Source of the DNA: a virus
Direction: 5' to 3' (one strand)
Virus record (IMG/VR): IMGVR_UViG_3300035459_000032
Span: 1 to 26,384 of that record
DNA length: 26,384 nt
Part shown: in pieces, positions 2,414 to 13,436 of the stretch
How positions within the stretch are numbered: the first letter of the stretch is position 1
Layout of the letters: each line of letters starts with the position of its first letter
Program-made: the position numbers and the translations under genes
Notes under the pieces: generated by a model
The model's input: only the letters and a program-made list of their open reading frames with translations
Told to the model about the DNA's origin: nothing
Database searches by the model: none

Positions 2414-4522
2414 ATGGCAAAGCGCAATAAGAAAATATCGGCTGAAGATTCGGACTTGCTTGAATTGGCGTTGAAGCGGTTCAAGGACTGCGAGACGGCA
2501 AACCGCGATGTTTACGATGCCGCTCTAAACGATCTCAAATTTTGCGTTGACCAGTGGCCGGATGAATTGCGGCGCACGCGCAGCACTCCCGGACAGGAGC
2601 GTCCGATTGTCACGGATGACCGCATTAGCGCAGTTGTGCATAAAATTTGCAACGACCAGCGGCAGAACCGTGCGCAAGGAAAAGTTAGGCCCTTGTCAGA
2701 TGCGACACAAAGCAAGGCCGATTTATACACTGGCATTATCCGCCATATTCAGTACGATAGCGATTCTGAAACAGCGTTTGACACCAGTTTTGAAAGCGCT
2801 GTGCGCTGCTCAATCGGCTACCATCGGATAGCGACTGATTATGTTGACGATCAGACGTTTGATGAAGAGATAAAGATAAAGCGTATATCTAATCCGTTTA
2901 CCGTTTTTTTCCCGATTCATCTGTGCCGGGAACTCGATTTCAGCGATGCGGAATACTGTTTTGCATGGCGGGATATTCCCAAGGACGAATTTGAGGAGGA
3001 TTATCCGGGCTTTCCTATCGCGGATTGGCTTGTCACGCGCAACGGGTCATCTGGATGGCTCACGGAGAAAACGGTTCGAGTCTGTGAATATTTCTATATC
3101 GAGCATGAAAAGAAAACTCTGTATAAATTCAGCGACGGCACAACGGCGTTTGAGATACCGGAAGGCTTTCTCTCTGTTGACGAAAGAGAAGTCGATAAGC
3201 GCAGCGTTAAATGGTGTTTGCTCACACAAGGCGCAGTCCTCGATAAAGGCGACTTTCCCGGACAGTGGTTGCCGATCATACCTGTGCTCGGTGAAGAAAT
3301 TAACGTCGAGGGCCAGGTGGTTCTTAAAAGCGCAATCCGAAACTGTAAAGATCCTCAGCGCATGGTCAACTATTATTCGGCGCAGGAAATGGAAATTGTT
3401 GCGCTTGCACCAAAAGCGCCGCACATTGCTGCAGAACACCAGCTCGATGGATATGAGGATCAATGGGCCGCGGCAAACATCCAGAACATAGCAGTGCTCA
3501 AGTACAAGCCGATCATGGTCGGCGGCACAGTATTACCACCCCCGCAGCGCTCGCAGCCGCCTATGGTCTCTACGGCGATTGTAGAAGCAAAGCGCGAGTA
3601 CATAGACAGCATTAAAGCAACCTCCGGCGTTTTCGATGCATCCCTGGGGGCGCAAGGCAACGAAAAGAGCGGCGTTGCAATTCGCGCACGACAGCGGCAA
3701 GGCGATACCGCGAATTTCCATTTCCCGGACAATCTCGCAAAGAGCATGTGCCATACGTGGCGCGTTGTTGTTGCCATGATTCCGGAAGTTTATGATACGG
3801 AGCGTGAGATAACAATCATGGGCGAAGATATGCGCGATGAAATCGTAAGAATTAATAGCGAGCTTGAGGGTGACGTTGAAGGAAAAAAGCACTTCGGGCA
3901 TCTCGATGCCGGCAGATACGGCGTTGTCGTTGATACCGGGCCGTCTTATGCGTCAAAGAGGCAGGAAGTTGCGGACAACCTGATTCAAATGGGACAGAAC
4001 GATCCGAATATTTACCCGATTGCTCGTGATCTTATTGCGAAAAACGTCGGCATGGGTGCGGATGTAGTCGAGCGTTTTGCAAAGACGATTGATCCGAAGT
4101 TGATGGAGAACAAAGACCAACAGAGTGTGCCAGTTGCTCAAGTGCAGGCAATGCAGCAGGAATTTCAGGCGAAAGAGAAGGATTTACAAGGGGTAATTGA
4201 GCAAGCAATGGCCGATATTCAGAAACTTGAAGCGGCTGTGAAGGAAAAGCAAAGCGGCTTTGCAAAAGATATTGCTGTCACGCAGATGAAAACGCAGGCG
4301 GAGCTTGAAAAGGCGCATCTTGACAACGCGCATGAAATCGGCATGGCCGCACATTCTCACGTTCTTGAAAACAACCCGCAAATAGCGGAGATAATAAACG
4401 ACCTCAGCTCACGGCTCATGGAGCTTGAGAGTAGCATAAAAACAATGAGCCAAGCACCGGCGGCTAATGCCGAGAGTACAGCAAAAGGAGCAACGAATGC
4501 CAACGGAACTGAAACAGTCTGA
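2414..4522 (+). CDS. P22-type portal protein
   Basis: At 702 residues it is close to the P22 gp1 portal. The portal forms the dodecameric ring at the capsid vertex through which DNA is packaged and ejected and to which the tail attaches. The N-terminal region has the family's signature run of conserved acidic/aromatic and QNR-type segments (VHKICNDQRQNRAQGKVRPL near 75-94; SVGYHR-like CSIGYHRIATDY near 131-142). The last ~130 residues are a Gln/Glu/Lys-rich coiled coil (around VAQVQAMQQEFQAKEKD), matching the barrel helix of long P22-like portals. No strong Shine-Dalgarno precedes ATG 2414. The 3' end overlaps the scaffold gene by 26 bases. Confidence 0.92.
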   Translation: MAKRNKKISAEDSDLLELALKRFKDCETANRDVYDAALNDLKFCVDQWPDELRRTRSTPGQERPIVTDDRISAVVHKICNDQRQNRAQGKVRPLSDATQSKADLYTGIIRHIQYDSDSETAFDTSFESAVRCSIGYHRIATDYVDDQTFDEEIKIKRISNPFTVFFPIHLCRELDFSDAEYCFAWRDIPKDEFEEDYPGFPIADWLVTRNGSSGWLTEKTVRVCEYFYIEHEKKTLYKFSDGTTAFEIPEGFLSVDEREVDKRSVKWCLLTQGAVLDKGDFPGQWLPIIPVLGEEINVEGQVVLKSAIRNCKDPQRMVNYYSAQEMEIVALAPKAPHIAAEHQLDGYEDQWAAANIQNIAVLKYKPIMVGGTVLPPPQRSQPPMVSTAIVEAKREYIDSIKATSGVFDASLGAQGNEKSGVAIRARQRQGDTANFHFPDNLAKSMCHTWRVVVAMIPEVYDTEREITIMGEDMRDEIVRINSELEGDVEGKKHFGHLDAGRYGVVVDTGPSYASKRQEVADNLIQMGQNDPNIYPIARDLIAKNVGMGADVVERFAKTIDPKLMENKDQQSVPVAQVQAMQQEFQAKEKDLQGVIEQAMADIQKLEAAVKEKQSGFAKDIAVTQMKTQAELEKAHLDNAHEIGMAAHSHVLENNPQIAEIINDLSSRLMELESSIKTMSQAPAANAESTAKGATNANGTETV

Positions 4523-5297
4523 ACAGCCAATTGACGAAAAGGAAACTATCGTAGTCGAAAAGCCTGCCGATGAAAAACCGGCAGAGACGGCTGATGAATC
4601 CGCAACGTCTGAGACTCCGAGTGAAGAAAAGCCGGAAGTAAAAGCAGATGAAAAAGCGGATGAAAAGCCAAAGGGCGAAGACAGTGGACTTGTCAAACAC
4701 TTGCGCAAAACGATAGATCATCTCTCAAAGAAAACCAGAGAGCTTGAGCGCCGTTTTGAGCAGGGGCAGGAGATTCCGCCTCCCGTGAAAGAAAATTTTA
4801 CTGATGACGCGGAATTTACAAAGGCCAATCAGAAGTTTCAGGAAACGCAATCTCGGCGCAGCGCAAACGAAATGCAGCGGGCAATTGAAGAGACGCAATT
4901 CGAGCATGAGGACTTCGACATTAACAGCATCGGGCATTTGAATTTTCATATTCCGACGCTGGCTAATGCGGTAAATACTTTGCAGCATGGTAAGGACATT
5001 CTCTACTACCTGACAAAGAACCCGGATGAAGCCTCCGAATTGTCGCTTTTGTCAAAGAGCAGTCCGGCAGCATTCGAGCAAAAACTAGTCGAGATACATG
5101 CGGGCATTCGCAAATCGAAAGTTCCTGTACAGCCAAAAGCAAAAAAAGTATCTGATGCGCCAAAGCCTATCAAACCTATCGGCGGCAATCGCGGAGCATC
5201 GAGAGTAGATCCGGCGAAAATGACTGATAAAGAATGGCTTGATTGGCGTCGCACAGAGAGAGCACAAAAATTTAAACAGCAAATGGGAGTAACATAA
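4497..5297 (+). CDS. Scaffolding protein
   Basis: I chose ATG 4497 over an in-frame ATG at 4467 because AAGGAG (4485-4490) lies six bases upstream. The protein then has 266 residues. It lies between portal and coat, the scaffold position in P22-like phages. The first ~80 residues are acidic and low in complexity, with repeated DEKP/ADEK units. The middle is helical, charged and coiled-coil-like (HLRKTIDHLSKKTRELERRF). The C-terminus is a basic helical tail (MTDKEWLDWRRTERAQKFKQ), like the coat-binding tail of P22 scaffold. It would direct procapsid assembly and then leave the head. Its TAA is followed after one T by the coat ATG. Confidence 0.85.
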   Translation: MPTELKQSEQPIDEKETIVVEKPADEKPAETADESATSETPSEEKPEVKADEKADEKPKGEDSGLVKHLRKTIDHLSKKTRELERRFEQGQEIPPPVKENFTDDAEFTKANQKFQETQSRRSANEMQRAIEETQFEHEDFDINSIGHLNFHIPTLANAVNTLQHGKDILYYLTKNPDEASELSLLSKSSPAAFEQKLVEIHAGIRKSKVPVQPKAKKVSDAPKPIKPIGGNRGASRVDPAKMTDKEWLDWRRTERAQKFKQQMGVT

Positions 5298-5298
5298 T

Positions 5299-6549
5299 AT
5301 GTCACAGACTCTAATTACCGGCCAAGAGCTTACGCGGGCCGCTCTTGACATTTTCCACAATAACGTGGTCATTACCCGCAACATGGATCTCCAGTATGAG
5401 CCTGATTTTGGATCGCAGACCGGCTATGATGGGCAGAAAATAGGCCCGACTCTGCAAATCCGCAAACCGCCTATCGGCACAGTTCGCAGCACGTGGGCAA
5501 TGAGCCAACAGGACATGACCGAAACCTATGCAAGCCTCACGGTTGATACGGTTCGCGGCATTGACCTGAATTTCCCGGATGCGGATCTGGCGCTGTCAGT
5601 TGACGATTTTGTGAAGCGCTATATTGAGCCGAATGTGAAGCGGCTTGCATCGGAAGTTGACAAGGTTTCAGGCGCATGGATAAAGAACCATACTTCGCGC
5701 CTTACCGGCCTCGGCGGCACGCAGCCGAATGCAATCAGCTATTTCCTGAATGCAAAGCGCAAGTTGAATGATCAGACCGTGCCCCAAGACGGGGACATTG
5801 CTTGCATTGTCTGCCCCGCGACTGAGGCGGCGATGATCGGCGGCCTGACGCCGCTGCAATTCAATCCGCAGGCAGAGCTGAGTGAAATGTTCAAAACCGG
5901 CAAGATAAGCAATATGGCCGGAATGAATTGGTACATGAGCCAGATCCTTACCGCTCATACTTGCGGATCGCGCACTGAAACTACGCCTGTTGCGTCGGCG
6001 ATTGTTACGCAGGGCCAAAGCACCATGACAATAACTGGACTAAATGCGACTAGCTTTACAGAAGGCGATATTTTCACTGTGGCTGGCTGCTATGACTGCA
6101 ACCCAGAGACGAAGCAGACATTGCCATATCTGAAGCAATTCAGGGTTACAAGCACTGTCACCGCAACTGCGACGACCACAAATCTTCCGATTGCGCCAAG
6201 CGTGTATTTCAGCAGCGCGGCGGGTTATTTGCAGAATTGCAGTGCGTTCCCTGGCGGAGCGGTGAGTGATATCAATGACGCCACGCATTTCGGTTCGGGC
6301 ACGGCGAGCTACACATACAGCAACGACCTTGTTTTCCACAAGAAAGCGTTTGCGTTTGCGTCGGCTCCGCTGATAATTCCGAATGGCGTTGACATGGCGG
6401 GCCGCGCAAGTGCGGACGGTTTTAGCGTGCGTTTTGTGCGTGCTTATGACACACTCAATGCGCGTATGCTTAACCGGCTTGACATTTTCTTTGGTCTTGC
6501 TGATTTGAGGCCTGAGTGGTCATGCCGCGTTATTGGTGTTGGTGCATAG
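5299..6549 (+). CDS. Major capsid protein, P22 gp5-type
   Basis: This 416-residue protein has the length and layout of the P22 coat family (HK97 fold plus an inserted I-domain). The N-terminal arm (MSQTLITGQELTRAALDIFH) is followed by E-loop-like sequence with RKPPIGTVR near 55-63. The extra domain lies at about 215-320 and includes the family-like phrase GDIFTVAGCYDCNPETKQTL (residues ~253-272). The C-terminus returns to HK97-type strands, ending ADLRPEWSCRVIGVGA. It is the most abundant virion protein. A stable hairpin follows the gene, as is common after coat genes. The start is one base after the scaffold stop. Confidence 0.93.
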   Translation: MSQTLITGQELTRAALDIFHNNVVITRNMDLQYEPDFGSQTGYDGQKIGPTLQIRKPPIGTVRSTWAMSQQDMTETYASLTVDTVRGIDLNFPDADLALSVDDFVKRYIEPNVKRLASEVDKVSGAWIKNHTSRLTGLGGTQPNAISYFLNAKRKLNDQTVPQDGDIACIVCPATEAAMIGGLTPLQFNPQAELSEMFKTGKISNMAGMNWYMSQILTAHTCGSRTETTPVASAIVTQGQSTMTITGLNATSFTEGDIFTVAGCYDCNPETKQTLPYLKQFRVTSTVTATATTTNLPIAPSVYFSSAAGYLQNCSAFPGGAVSDINDATHFGSGTASYTYSNDLVFHKKAFAFASAPLIIPNGVDMAGRASADGFSVRFVRAYDTLNARMLNRLDIFFGLADLRPEWSCRVIGVGA

Positions 6550-6566
6550 GTGTGAGTGAGTGGTGA

Positions 6567-6593
6567 GCCCCTGTTTCGGCAGGGGCAATTTCT
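6567..6593 (+). terminator. Stem-loop after the coat gene
   Basis: GCCCCTG (6567-6573) and CAGGGGC (6580-6586) form a perfect seven-pair GC-rich stem around a TTTCGG loop. A weak T-rich tail (AATTTCTT) follows. It is 18 bases after the coat stop. It may act as a partial terminator or protect the 3' end of the coat message, so that coat is made in excess over downstream genes. The poor T-run makes full termination unlikely. Confidence 0.6.
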
Positions 6594-6625
6594 TAACAAT
6601 ATCAGTTAACAAATAGGAGTCTTTT

Positions 6626-6904
6626 ATGAGCGCTCGGACACAGTATCAAATGGTTGGATGCGAGCAGCCGGATGGCGCGATTGTCGGCCAGTCCTCGGCT
6701 TCGCTTGTCGGTTTTTACGGAATTACGCCTGTAGATCAGGCAGCGGCAATCACAAGTCCCGGTACAACGATCTCTATCAGCAGCTCGCCTTTTGGATACA
6801 CCAGCACGCAGGCAAACGCGCTTGTTGTAGCTGTGGACAGCATCCTGACGGCTTTAAAAGAGGTCGGGATTATCGCTGGCGGAACTGCCGTAACTATTGG
6901 CTGA
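6626..6904 (+). CDS. Small head-surface/decoration-like protein (92 aa)
   Basis: ATG 6626 has AGGAG upstream (TAGGAGTCTTTT spacer). The product includes SLVGFYGITPVDQAAAITSP followed by a Thr/Ser-rich stretch and a final helix (AVDSILTALKEVGIIAGG). Many phages encode such a protein next to the coat gene: a short piece with GFYG-T-P-V-Q, a low-complexity linker and a C-terminal trimerising-type helix ending in L-x-x-x-G-L-I. It is usually annotated as head fibre or decoration protein. The placement here, just after coat, agrees. The assignment is by pattern and position. Confidence 0.6.
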   Translation: MSARTQYQMVGCEQPDGAIVGQSSASLVGFYGITPVDQAAAITSPGTTISISSSPFGYTSTQANALVVAVDSILTALKEVGIIAGGTAVTIG

Positions 6905-6925
6905 TAAGCTGATAACGAGAAAATT

Positions 6926-6946
6926 GGAGGGGTGAAATTCCCCTCC
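6926..6946 (+). promoter_or_regulatory. Hairpin that buries the Shine-Dalgarno of the cassette
   Basis: GGAGGGG (6926-6932) and CCCCTCC (6940-6946) form a perfect seven-pair stem around TGAAATT. The 5' arm is the only Shine-Dalgarno-like sequence before the MptE-like gene and includes the G of a possible GTG start at 6932. The closed hairpin would hide it, leaving ATG 6953 just beyond the stem. No T-run follows, so it is a poor terminator. It could limit translation of the cassette unless opened. Confidence 0.5.
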
Positions 6947-6952
6947 CTTCAA

Positions 6953-7534
6953 ATGACAAAAAGCATACAAAAATTAAAGGGAGTTCACAAAGGGGAAACC
7001 GTTTGGATTATAGGCAAGGGCCCTAGTTTAGCATATCTCAAAAAAAGCGATATTGGAAATGGGCCTATAATTACACTTAATCAAGCATTGATAAAAATTG
7101 AAGAAATTGAATTTGAAAACAAAATTTATTCAATGCAAAAAGACGGGTGTGCTACTTGTGCAAAATGTCCAAACGAATCATGTGAAAGTTGTAAAATAAT
7201 CCCTAAAAAGGCCGCGCTGATTGTTCACAAATATGAATCGGGCCTGCTTTTTATGGATTATGAACCAAGATACGTATTCGATTGTAAAAAAGATTTTGGA
7301 TTGCATCCCTATACTTTTTCTGCTATTGTTGCGATTATAATAGGGATTATGATGGGGTGCAGTAGGTTTGTATTTGTATCATTTGATGCGTGCACGAATG
7401 GTAGTATAGAAACAGAAATACCCGGCGGAATTAAAATAATTGATCCGAATTTATATCATATGCCGGAAGTTATCAAAGAATTAATTAAGCAATTAAAATA
7501 TGCTTACGAATGGTTGACACCATGCGCTTATTGA
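6953..7534 (+). CDS. MptE/DUF115-like protein with a cysteine cluster
   Basis: I chose ATG 6953 (193 aa) over GTG 6932, which lies inside a hairpin directly against the only GGAGG. The N-terminus VHKGETVWIIGKGPSLAYL contains the G-x-G-P-S-L loop typical of the MptE-like/DUF115 fold, shared by pterin pyrophosphokinase MptE and by the Maf proteins that glycosylate flagellin. A five-cysteine cluster (C66, C69, C72, C77, C80) interrupts the fold, and the family is not known to me to need one. A hydrophobic segment (SAIVAIIIGIMMGCSRFVF, about 123-141) fits a core strand-helix of a Rossmann-like fold. The gene is A/T-rich and heads a cassette with two glycosyltransferases, so sugar or nucleotide-sugar handling is the best guess. 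Confidence 0.6.
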   Translation: MTKSIQKLKGVHKGETVWIIGKGPSLAYLKKSDIGNGPIITLNQALIKIEEIEFENKIYSMQKDGCATCAKCPNESCESCKIIPKKAALIVHKYESGLLFMDYEPRYVFDCKKDFGLHPYTFSAIVAIIIGIMMGCSRFVFVSFDACTNGSIETEIPGGIKIIDPNLYHMPEVIKELIKQLKYAYEWLTPCAY

Positions 7535-8238
7535 TTGCTACGCCATTTTACGAAATGAAGGGGTTTTCTCCGTACATATCATCTATTGTAAAAACAATAA
7601 TGATATTAATGAAATCCGGAATTGATGTTGATTATTGGGAACTGTCGGGAGATTCGTACATCGATAGGGCAAGAAATAAAATATCTAACCTGTTTATGAG
7701 AAGTGAATACACTGATTTGCTATTTGTCGATAGCGATATGGGGTGGGATTGCAAGTCGTTGGAAAATATTATACGGCACGAGGTTGATATCGTAGGGGCA
7801 GGATATCCTTGTAAAAATAAATGGGATTTTTGGGGATGCGTGCTGAATACCGAAGAAGGATACGAGAACACGTATGATGCAGCTGGAAGGATAACGCATG
7901 TTGGCCCGCCAAAATGCAAGGACGGTTTGATAAGCGCTCGATTCGTTCCGACGGGCTTCATGAAAATACGTCGGCAGGTGTTCGAGCGGCTTACAAAGGA
8001 ATGCCCCGATAATTTCTATGTCGATGAAAATGGAGAAAAGATATATAACTTTTTTGGTAGGATTCCGCCGCTTGGGGAGGATTCAAGCTTTTGCAAGCGC
8101 TGGACTGATATTGGCGGCGAGCTGTGGGTTGAGCCGGATTGTACAATCAGCCATTACGGATTCAAAGAGTACAAAGGGAATTACGCGCAATACCTGAGAA
8201 GCATGCCGGAAGCGAAGAGGATAGAAAATGTTATATAA
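7522..8238 (+). CDS. GT-A-like glycosyltransferase, copy 1
   Basis: The start at ATG 7522 gives MRLLIATPFYEM, the usual family N-terminus; ATG 7510 would add four residues. The gene overlaps the previous one. The LLIATPFYE strand is followed by YIDRARNKI and then LLFVDSDMGW, a D-x-D metal and nucleotide-sugar site after a hydrophobic strand. Further on are VDIVGAGYP, FVPTGFMKI and GEDSSFCKRW, the order expected of small GT-A transferases found in phages. A paralogue lies at 8358-9095 with all these blocks in the same order. A sugar donor and acceptor cannot be inferred. A virion protein, host surface glycan or modified base are possible targets. Confidence 0.72.
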   Translation: MRLLIATPFYEMKGFSPYISSIVKTIMILMKSGIDVDYWELSGDSYIDRARNKISNLFMRSEYTDLLFVDSDMGWDCKSLENIIRHEVDIVGAGYPCKNKWDFWGCVLNTEEGYENTYDAAGRITHVGPPKCKDGLISARFVPTGFMKIRRQVFERLTKECPDNFYVDENGEKIYNFFGRIPPLGEDSSFCKRWTDIGGELWVEPDCTISHYGFKEYKGNYAQYLRSMPEAKRIENVI

Positions 8239-8371
8239 AAACAAAAACGGTCATTTGATTGGAATTTTAGATTGGCAAGTTACCAAAGAAGATATTGAAA
8301 GAAAGAGGAGGCTAGATGCTTACTGGATAGATAAAGAAAATAAGGAAAAAAAAGGAAATGTCACTCAATAA
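8228..8371 (+). CDS. Small hypothetical protein (47 aa)
   Basis: This frame fills the gap between the two glycosyltransferase genes and overlaps both: 11 bases with the upstream gene and 14 with the downstream one. It starts MLYKNKNGHLIGILDWQVTK and continues as a charged helix (EDIERKRRLDAYWIDKENKE). I do not recognise it. Overlap on both sides, A/T-rich codon use like its neighbours, and the absence of another frame here support translation. The next gene's ribosome-binding site (AAAAGGAA) lies inside its 3' end. Confidence 0.55.
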   Translation: MLYKNKNGHLIGILDWQVTKEDIERKRRLDAYWIDKENKEKKGNVTQ

Positions 8372-9095
8372 ATTCAAGGTTTACATTTCTATACCTGCTT
8401 ACGATGGAAAAATGGCACTTGAAACAGGCATGTCTTTGTTGAATAATATTCGTGTCCTGGAAAAGGCCGGTTACGAATGTTTTATAGATTCCGTTCTTGG
8501 AGATTGCTACATTGAGAATGCGCGGAACAAACTGTGCAAATCATTCCTGATGTCAAATTGTGAAAACATGGTGTTTGTTGATAACGATTTGTCGTTTGAC
8601 AACAATGCAATTTTGAAGCTGCTCAGCAGGCCGGTTGATATTATCGGCGGAGCATATCCTTATCGCGATCCAAAAAAGTCAACATTCCCAGTAAGCATTA
8701 TGCTGGATGAAAATGCCATTCCCGTTGGCGATCCCGCGCATGGGATAATCAAGGCGCATTTTGTGCCTACTGGCCTGATGCGGATAACGCGGGCAGCGCT
8801 TGAGGCCATGAAGGACGAAAACTGGCTTGAACAGCCAAGCAACAAAGAGGAAACGCCGACATATCGTTTTTTTCGGCAGGGATTAGGCTTTGCAATCGGA
8901 CTTGATAAAGAAGATAAGCGATGGATAGGTGAGGATGTTTTCTTTTGCTCGGATGCGAACCGAAAAGGCATTCAGGTATGGTGCGATCCGCGTATTGCCT
9001 TTGAGCATTTCGGCAAAATCGGTACAAAGGGATGCTATCACGAATATCTGTTGAAAAATGGCGTATCTGAAGAAGATAAGAAAAAGGCGGCATAA
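8358..9095 (+). CDS. GT-A-like glycosyltransferase, copy 2
   Basis: This 245-residue paralogue of the 7522-8238 product has the same block order: VYISIPAYDG, YIENARNKL, MVFVDNDLSF (the D-x-D site), VDIIGGAYP, FVPTGLMRI and IGEDVFFC. The blocks match one for one but whole-length identity looks modest, so the duplication is old or the two were acquired separately. It has a more G/C-rich codon use than copy 1, especially in its second half. The two may add successive sugars or act on different acceptors. The stop overlaps the next start as TAATG, so the cassette is coupled to the tail-adaptor gene and is probably expressed late. Confidence 0.72.
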   Translation: MSLNKFKVYISIPAYDGKMALETGMSLLNNIRVLEKAGYECFIDSVLGDCYIENARNKLCKSFLMSNCENMVFVDNDLSFDNNAILKLLSRPVDIIGGAYPYRDPKKSTFPVSIMLDENAIPVGDPAHGIIKAHFVPTGLMRITRAALEAMKDENWLEQPSNKEETPTYRFFRQGLGFAIGLDKEDKRWIGEDVFFCSDANRKGIQVWCDPRIAFEHFGKIGTKGCYHEYLLKNGVSEEDKKKAA

Positions 9096-9860: not shown

Positions 9861-11210
9861 ATGACACAATCAGTCGATTTGGGATTTATTGGCGGCCTTT
9901 CTCCTGCACGCAGCGTGCAAATTGATTGCGAGCAGTGCATCAATTTTTACCCGGAGCTGGAGGGCCCTGGAGCAAAGAACGTGCGTGCGCTTATCGGCGT
10001 GCCCGGCAAGGCGCGCTTTGCCACAATAGCAGTGGCGGGCGCTGCGCGATGTCTGCACACTACGGCCAACGGACGAATGTTTGCGGCCATTGGCAGCACT
10101 CTATGCGAAGTCTATTACGACGGCCGCTATACCGTTGTGGGAAGCCTGCTGACAGTCCTGGGGGCCATAACGATGGCGGACAATGGCCGCGCGGGTAATC
10201 AACTTGTCGTTGCTGATGGCACTGCCGGATATGTTCTCGACTTGGTTACAAACGAGTTCGTACAAATACCGGATTTTTGTCCTAACGGCACGCATGTAAT
10301 ATTTAAAGACCAATATTTCTTGATGAACAGTCCAAATACCGGCAGATTTTATGCAAGCGGCCTTCTTGATGGACTATCGTGGGATGCTCTTGTATTTGCG
10401 ACTGCCGAAGGATCTCCGGACAACATTGTAGCAATAGCTAAAACAAATAACGAACTATGGCTATTTGGCGAGCAGTCTGCTGAGGTCTGGTACAATGCCG
10501 GAGCCGTTGATTTTCCTTTCGTGCAAATTCCAAATGCATTTATAGACGTCGGCACGGAAGCACCGGCAAGCGTGGCGGTTCAGGGTAATGACATTTTCTG
10601 GTTGGGCAGCAACAATCGGGGCCATGGAATAGTCTGGCATGCGGTCGGATATCAGCCCGAGCGAATCAGCACTCACGGAATTGAATATATCATTTCTCAG
10701 ATGTCGCGCTCAGATGACGCTATCGGTTATTGCTATCAGCAGGAAGGACATTTTTTCTATGTTCTCAATTTCCCGACGGCAAATAGAACCCTTGTCTACG
10801 ATCAGGCGTCTGGACTGTGGCACGAAAGACAGACCTATAACGAGCGCACAAATATCGGAGGGCGCGACCGTGGTAGTTGCCATACCTATGCATTCGGAAA
10901 ACACATCGTTGGAGATTTTACAAATGGAAATCTCTATGAATTAGATCTCGACACATATACCGATGACGGCGCGATAATTCAGGGAATACGGAGCATGCCG
11001 CATGCACACGCCAACATGAAGCGAATTTACTATTACGAGTTTGAGGCGGACATGGAAAAAGGCGTCGGCAGTGTGCATGAGATAACGCAAGGACCATTCG
11101 GGGTATTGTTTACAGATGATTTCTCAAGTTATTCGACAGGGGCTTTTACTGGTGACGACACCTGGGACGTTACAGAAGGAACATACGGAACAAATTTGGT
11201 GATAGGTTAA
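9861..11210 (+). CDS. gp10-like DNA stabilisation/tail protein, N-terminal part of a split gene
   Basis: The opening DLGFIGGLSPARSVQIDCEQ and CINFYPELEG, and VPGKARFATI are diagnostic for P22 gp10-like proteins, the hexameric tail component between the gp4 ring and the needle. The beta-propeller-like body runs to about residue 403 (FEADMEKGVG). There the family normally passes directly to its C-terminal block. Here, instead, a new segment starts (FTDDFSSYSTGAFTGDDTWD) and the frame ends at residue 449. The missing C-terminal block is in the next frame (11212-12018). No Shine-Dalgarno is visible before ATG 9861. Confidence 0.82.
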   Translation: MTQSVDLGFIGGLSPARSVQIDCEQCINFYPELEGPGAKNVRALIGVPGKARFATIAVAGAARCLHTTANGRMFAAIGSTLCEVYYDGRYTVVGSLLTVLGAITMADNGRAGNQLVVADGTAGYVLDLVTNEFVQIPDFCPNGTHVIFKDQYFLMNSPNTGRFYASGLLDGLSWDALVFATAEGSPDNIVAIAKTNNELWLFGEQSAEVWYNAGAVDFPFVQIPNAFIDVGTEAPASVAVQGNDIFWLGSNNRGHGIVWHAVGYQPERISTHGIEYIISQMSRSDDAIGYCYQQEGHFFYVLNFPTANRTLVYDQASGLWHERQTYNERTNIGGRDRGSCHTYAFGKHIVGDFTNGNLYELDLDTYTDDGAIIQGIRSMPHAHANMKRIYYYEFEADMEKGVGSVHEITQGPFGVLFTDDFSSYSTGAFTGDDTWDVTEGTYGTNLVIG

Positions 11211-11211
11211 T

Positions 11212-12018
11212 ATGGCTAATGCATTAATATTTTTGGGGAGACAAACGAACAGCTCAGCTGACGGGCCGTATTTCGGATATATTACGCCCAAAAATGCTGT
11301 GCATAATGACATGGCAATTACAGCAACGGCAGTTATTGCTGTTCCGCCCAAACCTTTGAGCGGAACAAATCGAAATCGATTGTGTTTTGAATTGAGAAGA
11401 AGCGGGTCAGGGGCAACGCTTTCCTGCTATCGCATTTCCATCGTTTCACAGTATGCATATAACGCAACTTCGGTATCAAATTACTGGCAGCTTGATCAGA
11501 TAACCGATGGAAGTGAAAACTATATTAACTCTGGAAATTTGAGTACATTTTCAGTCAATCCAAATGTGTCAACTACGTATGTTGCAAGTATTATCGGAAT
11601 TGACGATTATCCTCAAATAACTTTGACGGCAACCGGATCGGGCGGAAGTGTTATTGATTGGAACCATAGCCATGATGCGCTTATCGGAAATACCAACTGC
11701 GCAATAGGTTTTGATGCACGGGGCGTTGATGGAAATACTACTCCACTAGTTACGGTTACAGGCGTTTCTGTTTCAGGTTTGACAACGGTAGATATTTATC
11801 GCAGTCCGCAGGCAATGCTTTCCTGGAGCGATGACGGTGGTTTCACGTGGAACGGTGAGCGATGGGAAGATATAGGAAAAATAGGCGAATACTATACGCG
11901 CATGCACTGGCACAGACTCGGTTCAAGCAGAAACAGGGTTTTCAAAATGGTGATTTCCGACCCTGTAAAGCGCGTGCTGATAGCAAGCCATGTGACAATT
12001 GAACAGGAAACAGCATGA
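11212..12018 (+). CDS. gp10-like protein, C-terminal part with inserted LamG/ConA-like domain
   Basis: ATG 11212 lies one base after the stop of the N-terminal half (TAATATG). Residues 1 to ~195 are beta-rich and Thr/Ser/Asn-rich. Together with the last ~45 residues of the upstream protein they look like one concanavalin/LamG-like sandwich. From residue 196 the sequence is the classic gp10 C-terminus: PQAMLSWSDDGGFTWNGERW, IGKIGEYY, HRLGSSRNRVFKMVISDPVK. Removing the insert gives about 476 residues, close to P22 gp10 (472). It may be translated by re-initiation and assemble with the N-terminal half, or be the result of a one-base change in a single long gene. The stop overlaps the fibre start (ATGA). 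Confidence 0.75.
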   Translation: MANALIFLGRQTNSSADGPYFGYITPKNAVHNDMAITATAVIAVPPKPLSGTNRNRLCFELRRSGSGATLSCYRISIVSQYAYNATSVSNYWQLDQITDGSENYINSGNLSTFSVNPNVSTTYVASIIGIDDYPQITLTATGSGGSVIDWNHSHDALIGNTNCAIGFDARGVDGNTTPLVTVTGVSVSGLTTVDIYRSPQAMLSWSDDGGFTWNGERWEDIGKIGEYYTRMHWHRLGSSRNRVFKMVISDPVKRVLIASHVTIEQETA

Positions 12019-13436
12019 TAAAGCTGCCTCCTCCGCCTATTCATTCGCCATTTTTTATTGGCGACAAAAGCGCAATAGGACATGATTGGCTATCATGGTT
12101 TCAGCTCGTGGCGGCGATAGGAAAAGAACCGGGAAGCGTGGGGCCTGTCGGACCGGCTGGAGCAACAGGAGCAACAGGAGCACAAGGGCCAATAGGATCC
12201 AATGGAGCACAGGGCCCAGCTGGCAGCGCAAATATCAATGGTATTCCAGGGTACATTGTCGCTTTTGATGGCGCGACAAATGGAATAAGCGCAACGAATA
12301 CCGATGCGGAAGTTGCTGCAACCGTGGCCGCAAGTCACGCTACCGCGACAGTTGCTGATACGTCTAGCATTGATATGAGCATTTCCGGGCAGCAGATAAG
12401 CGGGGCGGTGCTGCCGGGCGGAGTTGACCATGCCGCGTTGATGGATTTGAACTCTACTAATTATACGCACTTATCAGCGGCAAACGCTACAGATTTGACA
12501 AATGGTAGTTCAACTACGCTACATCGGCACCCACTTAGTGGTTCATATATTGACTTCGCCCCCCACAACATGACGAGTAATGTACTACCTGTTCCTTATG
12601 TTGCAAGTGCAAGTTCGGAGTATAATACTGGAGGGGATTATTATCCTGCGTATAAAGGTTTTGATGGTCAACATACAATATTTTATGGCCGCTGGGTATC
12701 TACTAGCGCTCCGGCGTGGTTAAAAATTGATTTAGGTGTTGGAATTTATCACCTTCTTAACAATTATTCCATTCAAGCGCACGCTTCGTCTCTCGACCTG
12801 ACTAACGCTCCTAAAGCCTGGACTATGGAGGGCAGCAATAATGATTCTACGTGGGATGTTCTTCACACTGTGACAAATGAAACTAGTTGGACATCTGGAC
12901 AGATACGAAATTATACATGCGCTGTGGTGAGTACCGCGTATAGGTATTTCAGAATAAACATTTCCGATAATAATGGGTTTACATACCCGTCAGGCCCGTA
13001 TGCGGGGCAAAAAAGCATAGTAATAGACGAACTTTATTTGTTTGAAGGCGGTTTTGGCAAAATATTAGTGACTGATATCACTGATGCTACGACAACAGAT
13101 GCCAGCCTACGAACGCTTGGCGGGCTGAGTGTAACTAAAGACGAATATGTGGGTGGTGATATTGTTCTCGCAACCGTTGGCAAAGGTTTGAATATCAAGG
13201 AGGGCACGAACGCCCGAATGGGCCTCGCGACCCTTTCCGCAGGGGCAATAACAGTGAGCACGACTGCTGTGACTGCGAACAGTCGCATTATACTGACAAC
13301 GCAGGGTGGAACTTTAACGAATATTGGTGCGCCTTATGTTTCAGCAAGAACGGCGGGAACTTCCTTTACAATAAGTAGCACAAATGTTCTGGACGTGAGC
13401 GATGTAGCCTGGGTAATTTTGGAACCTTCGGCGTAA
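12015..13436 (+). CDS. Tail needle/fibre protein with collagen repeats and discoidin-like domain
   Basis: This 473-residue protein occupies the tail-needle position after gp10. Residues 1-35 (KLPPPPIHSPFFIGD, then DWLSWFQLVAA) look like a virion-anchoring module. Nine Gly-X-Y triplets follow at 43-69 (GPVGPAGATGATGAQ), forming a trimeric collagen-like rod. Residues 138-172 carry the fibre-type pattern DHAALMDLN, YTHLSAA and TLHRH. Residues ~184-345 fit an F5/8 type C (discoidin) sugar-binding domain: AYKGFDG, WLKIDLG, WTMEGSNNDSTWD and IDELYLFEG. The last 125 residues (KGLNIKEGTNARMG, SARTAGTSFTISS, DVAWVILEP) are a common C-terminal trimer domain of phage fibres. It probably binds host surface glycans. 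Confidence 0.78.
   Translation: MIKLPPPPIHSPFFIGDKSAIGHDWLSWFQLVAAIGKEPGSVGPVGPAGATGATGAQGPIGSNGAQGPAGSANINGIPGYIVAFDGATNGISATNTDAEVAATVAASHATATVADTSSIDMSISGQQISGAVLPGGVDHAALMDLNSTNYTHLSAANATDLTNGSSTTLHRHPLSGSYIDFAPHNMTSNVLPVPYVASASSEYNTGGDYYPAYKGFDGQHTIFYGRWVSTSAPAWLKIDLGVGIYHLLNNYSIQAHASSLDLTNAPKAWTMEGSNNDSTWDVLHTVTNETSWTSGQIRNYTCAVVSTAYRYFRINISDNNGFTYPSGPYAGQKSIVIDELYLFEGGFGKILVTDITDATTTDASLRTLGGLSVTKDEYVGGDIVLATVGKGLNIKEGTNARMGLATLSAGAITVSTTAVTANSRIILTTQGGTLTNIGAPYVSARTAGTSFTISSTNVLDVSDVAWVILEPSA

Follow-up and report, generated by a model that had tools for sequence, protein, structure and literature searches.

A P22 gp10-like tail hub gene with a large loop insertion, probably made as two chains, and its split counterparts in other short-tailed phages

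Introduction

Few tail parts of short-tailed phages are as conserved as hubs of the gp10 type, which are regarded as single-chain structural rings. In the virus record IMGVR_UViG_3300035459_000032, analysed here over its 26,384 bases (hereafter, the window), the gene for such a hub is divided between two reading frames, and the division falls inside some 240 residues that are extra to the gp10 protein. This raises the question of whether the hub is made as two chains or whether the break is an error, a programmed frameshift or a sign of decay, and what the extra sequence might be. If large domains regularly accompany a split hub gene, the virion would possess a second, exchangeable display site. 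Such a rule would also account for annotations that list short orphan ORFs and gp10 genes that look truncated.

The hub gene and its surroundings

The window carries a P22-like structural block with genes for the large terminase, portal, scaffold, coat, a head-tail adaptor-like protein, the gp10-like hub, a collagen/F5-8C fibre, a DNA ejection protein and a tailspike-like protein. Portal, scaffold, coat, adaptor-like, hub and DNA ejection genes follow one another in the order of the P22 gp10 block. All large genes other than the hub are unbroken ORFs, the structural ones with family matches. The features of the hub gene, together with a comparison site from the same genome, are as follows.

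9861..11210, + strand: gp10-like tail hub, chain 1 (449 aa), with the platform N-terminus, the beta-propeller and the start of the insert (PHROG 578, AlphaFold, 8eap)
11070..11207, + strand: insert part 1, about 46 residues, the C-terminal tail of chain 1 (FTDDFSSYSTGAF...LVIG), missing from relatives of 475-476 aa
11198..11203, + strand: GGTGAT, an extended Shine-Dalgarno-like motif 8 bases 5' of the chain 2 ATG (duplex energy)
11208..11214, + strand: TAATATG stop/restart between the chains, the same as at the scaffold/coat junction
11212..12018, + strand: gp10-like tail hub, chain 2 (268 aa), an ORF whose C-terminal 88 residues match PHROG 578
11212..11799, + strand: insert part 2, about 196 residues of orphan sequence with no database match, in which strands are predicted at very low confidence only
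11800..12015, + strand: conserved gp10 C-terminal module (SPQAMLSWSDDGG...), with tblastn matches in 39 phage records
5295..5301, + strand: TAATATG between scaffold (4467-5297) and coat (5299-6549), comparison site

The gene product is a tail hub (nozzle) of the P22 gp10 type, whose body and C-terminus are intact. In profile searches, residues 5-426 of chain 1 (E 1.6e-100) and residues 180-267 of chain 2 (E 3.4e-16) both match PHROG 578 (head closure Hc3), and the nearest PDB sequences are those of Pam1 (7eeq, E 2e-50) and Pan3 (9vyg, E 7e-48). The comparison with P22 gp10 proposed in the preliminary description was carried out on the read-through product, modelled by AlphaFold with 56 relatives. 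The body and C-terminus are predicted mostly at pLDDT above 90 and the insert below 50. The model, which has the propeller and platform fold of the P22 hub, superposes on P22 gp10 (8eap) with a Z score of 38.9 over 437 residues (rmsd 2.4), including both flanks of the insert. Thus, the gp10 identity first proposed from the letters is upheld by the family matches of both chains and by the fold. The ORFs and the alignment with relatives of 475-476 aa likewise bear out the coordinates, insert size and junction given there.

Two neighbouring regions may be mentioned here. The gene 3' of the hub (12015-13436) contains collagen repeats, an F5/8 type C (discoidin-like) domain and a K1-lyase C-terminal chaperone domain; its product is likely a fibre with its own sugar-binding domain. 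Two adjacent genes at 7510-8238 and 8358-9095 each match PHROG 1574 (function unknown), as though a structural gene had been duplicated in tandem.

The inserted sequence

In the same alignment, the extra sequence amounts to 239-243 residues, lying between ...EADMEKGVG (about 11070) and SPQAMLSWSDDGG (about 11800). This agrees with the domain insertion between gp10 body and C-terminus that had been described. The GC3 of insert part 2 is 0.34, as against 0.50-0.53 in the gp10 flanks, and this distinct composition makes a recent acquisition plausible.

No relative of the insert was found in Pfam, PHROGs, NCBIfam, PDB sequences or phages, and pairwise profile comparison with the accessory domains of other hubs showed no similarity. 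Matches to 6ekt (E 0.012) and 2i75 in the PDB were weak, belong by name to unrelated folds and were taken as chance. A search of IMG/VR with chain 2, coat and portal returned no relative of the insert; for coat and portal it returned one 6.5 kb contig (L013), which ends before gp10. In the collections searched there was neither a close relative of the window gp10 nor any relative with the same insert or the same junction. Because the insert has no relatives, AlphaFold is uninformative for it (pLDDT 32 when modelled by itself). The preliminary description had likened the insert, by eye, to a LamG/ConA domain, an impression shared by our own inspection. Laminin_G_3 gave no match in the insert even at E 10, and the suggestion is neither supported nor refuted. 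The modules found in other split hubs (Ig-like, Fn3, BspA-type leucine-rich repeats and a sub-threshold Laminin_G_3) suggest by analogy that the insert is likely an adhesin-like module.

The junction between the two reading frames

The first frame is closed by TAA (11208-11210) and the second opens no earlier than 11206, so the two can meet only within a stretch of 2-5 bases between 11204 and 11210. No homopolymer longer than two bases is present there, the nearest runs of five being at 11056, 11230 and 11290. The second chain starts right beside the stop of the first. Of random junction positions in the genes of the window genome, 1.5% have a stop and an in-frame ATG at such close range. The duplex of GGTGAT with the 13-nt 16S tail is worth -8.8 kcal/mol, a strength reached by 2.9% of 140 internal in-frame ATGs; both percentages were picked post hoc, after the site had been seen, and are suggestive. 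The 8-nt Shine-Dalgarno core of chain 2 is weak (-2.3, 37%).

Large inserts and split hubs among gp10 relatives

In an initial set of about 110 gp10 loci, most relatives have about two residues at the insert site, and some three dozen carry 31-91 extra, unrelated residues in a single frame. By these alignments, the hairpin loop near the end of gp10 is a hypervariable insertion site, or hotspot. In the full set of 196 classified loci, 184 are single-frame genes, all with inserts of at most 95 residues. The remaining 12 are split, and they comprise every locus with a larger insert (243-634 residues). After removal of near-copies, 123 single-frame and 8 split loci are left. L104, with withheld bases in this region, and L129, whose contig ends within its insert, were kept out of the counts, and apparent breaks in L076, L083 and L178-L189 were rejected as artefacts of the search start. 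The window gp10 falls with the split group, having an insert of more than 200 residues and its C-terminal module outside the body ORF.

A tree of 77 hub bodies, built by a quick method and with L194 and L217 as long branches, cannot be explained with fewer than four changes of state, even if well-supported branches alone are considered. Two-chain hubs with large added domains therefore appear to have arisen independently at least four times. To our knowledge this has not been described: a literature search that covered few subscription papers turned up neither a split gp10 nor a gp10 insertion hotspot.

In Acinetobacter prophages (L118/L150, L103 and L151), the gp10 C-terminal module is a separate 66-aa ORF. 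Two of these genomes have about 270 extra residues at the end of a chain 1 of 653-670 aa, and in them the 66-aa ORF has its own ribosome-binding site. The two hub chains are separated by gaps of 11-40 nt or by an extra ORF; in L151 a whole ORF of 315 aa (6132-7079) lies between both hub parts, suggesting that the split site behaves like a cargo locus. In L103, an intrinsic-terminator-like hairpin (4958-4975) stands between chain 1 and the 66-aa ORF and could alter the ratio of the two chains. The truncated Acinetobacter locus L129 (3-1715, - strand) bears an insert with BspA-type leucine-rich repeats (PF13306, E 8e-14).

A second lineage (L148, L212-L214 and L217), one of two that wider searches of genomes and viral contigs brought in, has a chain 1 of 642-961 aa, in several cases with Ig-like and other distal modules, and a chain 2 of 71-74 aa. 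Ig-like He_PIG was found in L148 and L214, and sub-threshold He_PIG and Laminin_G_3 in the extension of L212. The bodies of L212 and L214 are 93% identical and their distal modules differ, which indicates module exchange. In L217 (4501-6675), an extension of about 340 residues resembles a second propeller by eye and has no Pfam match. The C-terminal module is thus a separate ORF of 66-74 aa in L118, L103, L151, L148, L212 and L214.

In the third lineage (L194/L218/L219), the insertion occupies an earlier loop of gp10 and, as in the window, the reading frame is broken within the inserted sequence; L194 and L218 carry an Fn3 module. The position of the break is kept at 74% chain 1 identity while the junction bases differ (ATGA vs TGATG). 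In the other two lineages the accessory domain is wholly on chain 1, so that L194/L218 alone have the break within the insert. Across the second and third lineages (L148/L212/L214/L217/L194/L218), the junctions are ATGA, TGATG or GTGA.

Ratios of pN/pS were 0.33-0.38 for both chains of L194/L218. For the small chain 2 they were 0.12-0.25 within the Acinetobacter group and for L212/L214, and 0.48 for L212/L148. In both chains, synonymous changes outnumber non-synonymous ones by far; these split hubs are therefore maintained genes. In all three lineages the split is kept between related genomes under purifying selection. A Gluconobacter gp10 (L125, 2563-4051) is broken by a frameshift and has no insert, in what is apparently a decayed prophage.

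How the split is best explained

Taken together, the junction figures and the split rule drawn from relatives favour a genuine two-chain hub over the other explanations, and the window hub is probably made in this way. The simplest competing account is that of one continuous frame, interrupted by a one-base sequencing or assembly error or by a recent mutation in one genome. It gains from the locus being known from a single record and from an insert that reads naturally across the break, where the frames meet within a few bases and where no relative of the insert is available for comparison. However, the break lacks a homopolymer, its stop lies next to the ATG in the manner of real junctions in this genome, and no other large gene of the window is interrupted. 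The preliminary description had held that relatives with an uninterrupted frame, together with reads showing a missing base, would make the split an error. Such relatives do exist, but only where the large insert is missing; every other gp10 with a large insert is split, in isolates as well as in independent assemblies. We consider an error or mutation rather unlikely for these reasons.

A minority fused hub, made besides chain 1 by programmed +1 frameshifting at GGT TAA T, would fit the overlap of the frames by a few bases just 5' of the stop and the GGTGAT motif upstream. TAAT is, however, a strong stop context, and inspection of the junction revealed no recognised slippery heptamer or prfB-like CUU UGA. 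Further, the chains of the split relatives are encoded by separate genes, each with its own start site, or are parted by breaks beyond the reach of a +1 shift, as with the whole ORF in L151. The frameshift offered in the preliminary description as an alternative has thus gained no positive support, and we hold it to be very improbable, while the re-initiation proposed beside it is supported and now backed by independent split relatives. Least credible of all is the notion that insertion and break have destroyed the hub and that the record stems from a defective virus. An apparently decayed gp10 does occur in Gluconobacter, but the window gene keeps its conserved residues in body and C-terminus and shows no other lesion, and the remaining structural module is unbroken.

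A two-chain hub in the window could be formed as follows. The gp10 loop holds an accessory domain of about 240 residues, probably a surface-binding module of the virion. Chain 1, with the platform N-terminus, the propeller and the first 46 residues of the insert, would terminate at TAA, and ribosomes would restart one base later at the ATG to make chain 2 from the rest of the insert and the C-terminal module. The conserved end of chain 2 would then supply the missing part of the platform barrel in trans, a task that must also fall to the separate ORFs of 66-74 aa in other lineages if those hubs work. The two halves of the insert may conceivably pair and so hold the chains together. A hexameric hub would bear six such domains on the platform loop, which by comparison with T7 gp12 would face outward, and the domain would bind a receptor or glycan.

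The insert loop is most likely an exchangeable accessory display on a two-chain hub. A wider proposal, put forward tentatively and with more doubt than confidence, is that short-tailed phages repeatedly make the hub two-chain when a large surface-binding module is added, that a split insert serves both as host-recognition head and as non-covalent staple, and that the loop is a swappable second receptor-binding site besides the tailspikes. Acinetobacter prophages with a split gp10 exist in isolates, so the rule is directly testable.

Comparison with known systems

P22 gp10 and Sf6 gp8 (PHROG 578, Pfam Phage_stabilise) share with the window hub the fold, the C-terminal module and the P22-like gene place. 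P22 gp10 is nevertheless one chain of 472 aa, whereas the window hub has two ORFs and about 240 extra residues. Similarly, the Pam1 needle head and the Pan3 stabilization protein (7eeq, 9vyg), the closest solved sequences, have a common fold with the window hub but are single chains of 442-446 aa without a large insert. The muzzle protein gp44 of phicrAss001 (7qok) has a core like that of the window hub (Z 26.5) and has gained large inserted domains; unlike in the window, these lie within or between propeller blades of one long chain (PMC10172136). The T7 nozzle gp12 also consists of propeller and platform, with an extra jelly-roll, the fiber dock, between both on the outer surface. It is, however, one chain of 794 aa, and the dock is a permanent fiber-binding domain and not a variable module (PMC6702177). 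The split gp10s of Acinetobacter (L118/L103/L151), of L148/L212/L214/L217 and of L194/L218 differ from the window in their unrelated insert sequences and, in the first two lineages, in a chain 2 that is the 66-74 aa module only, but they share with it a large accessory domain and a separately started C-terminal chain.
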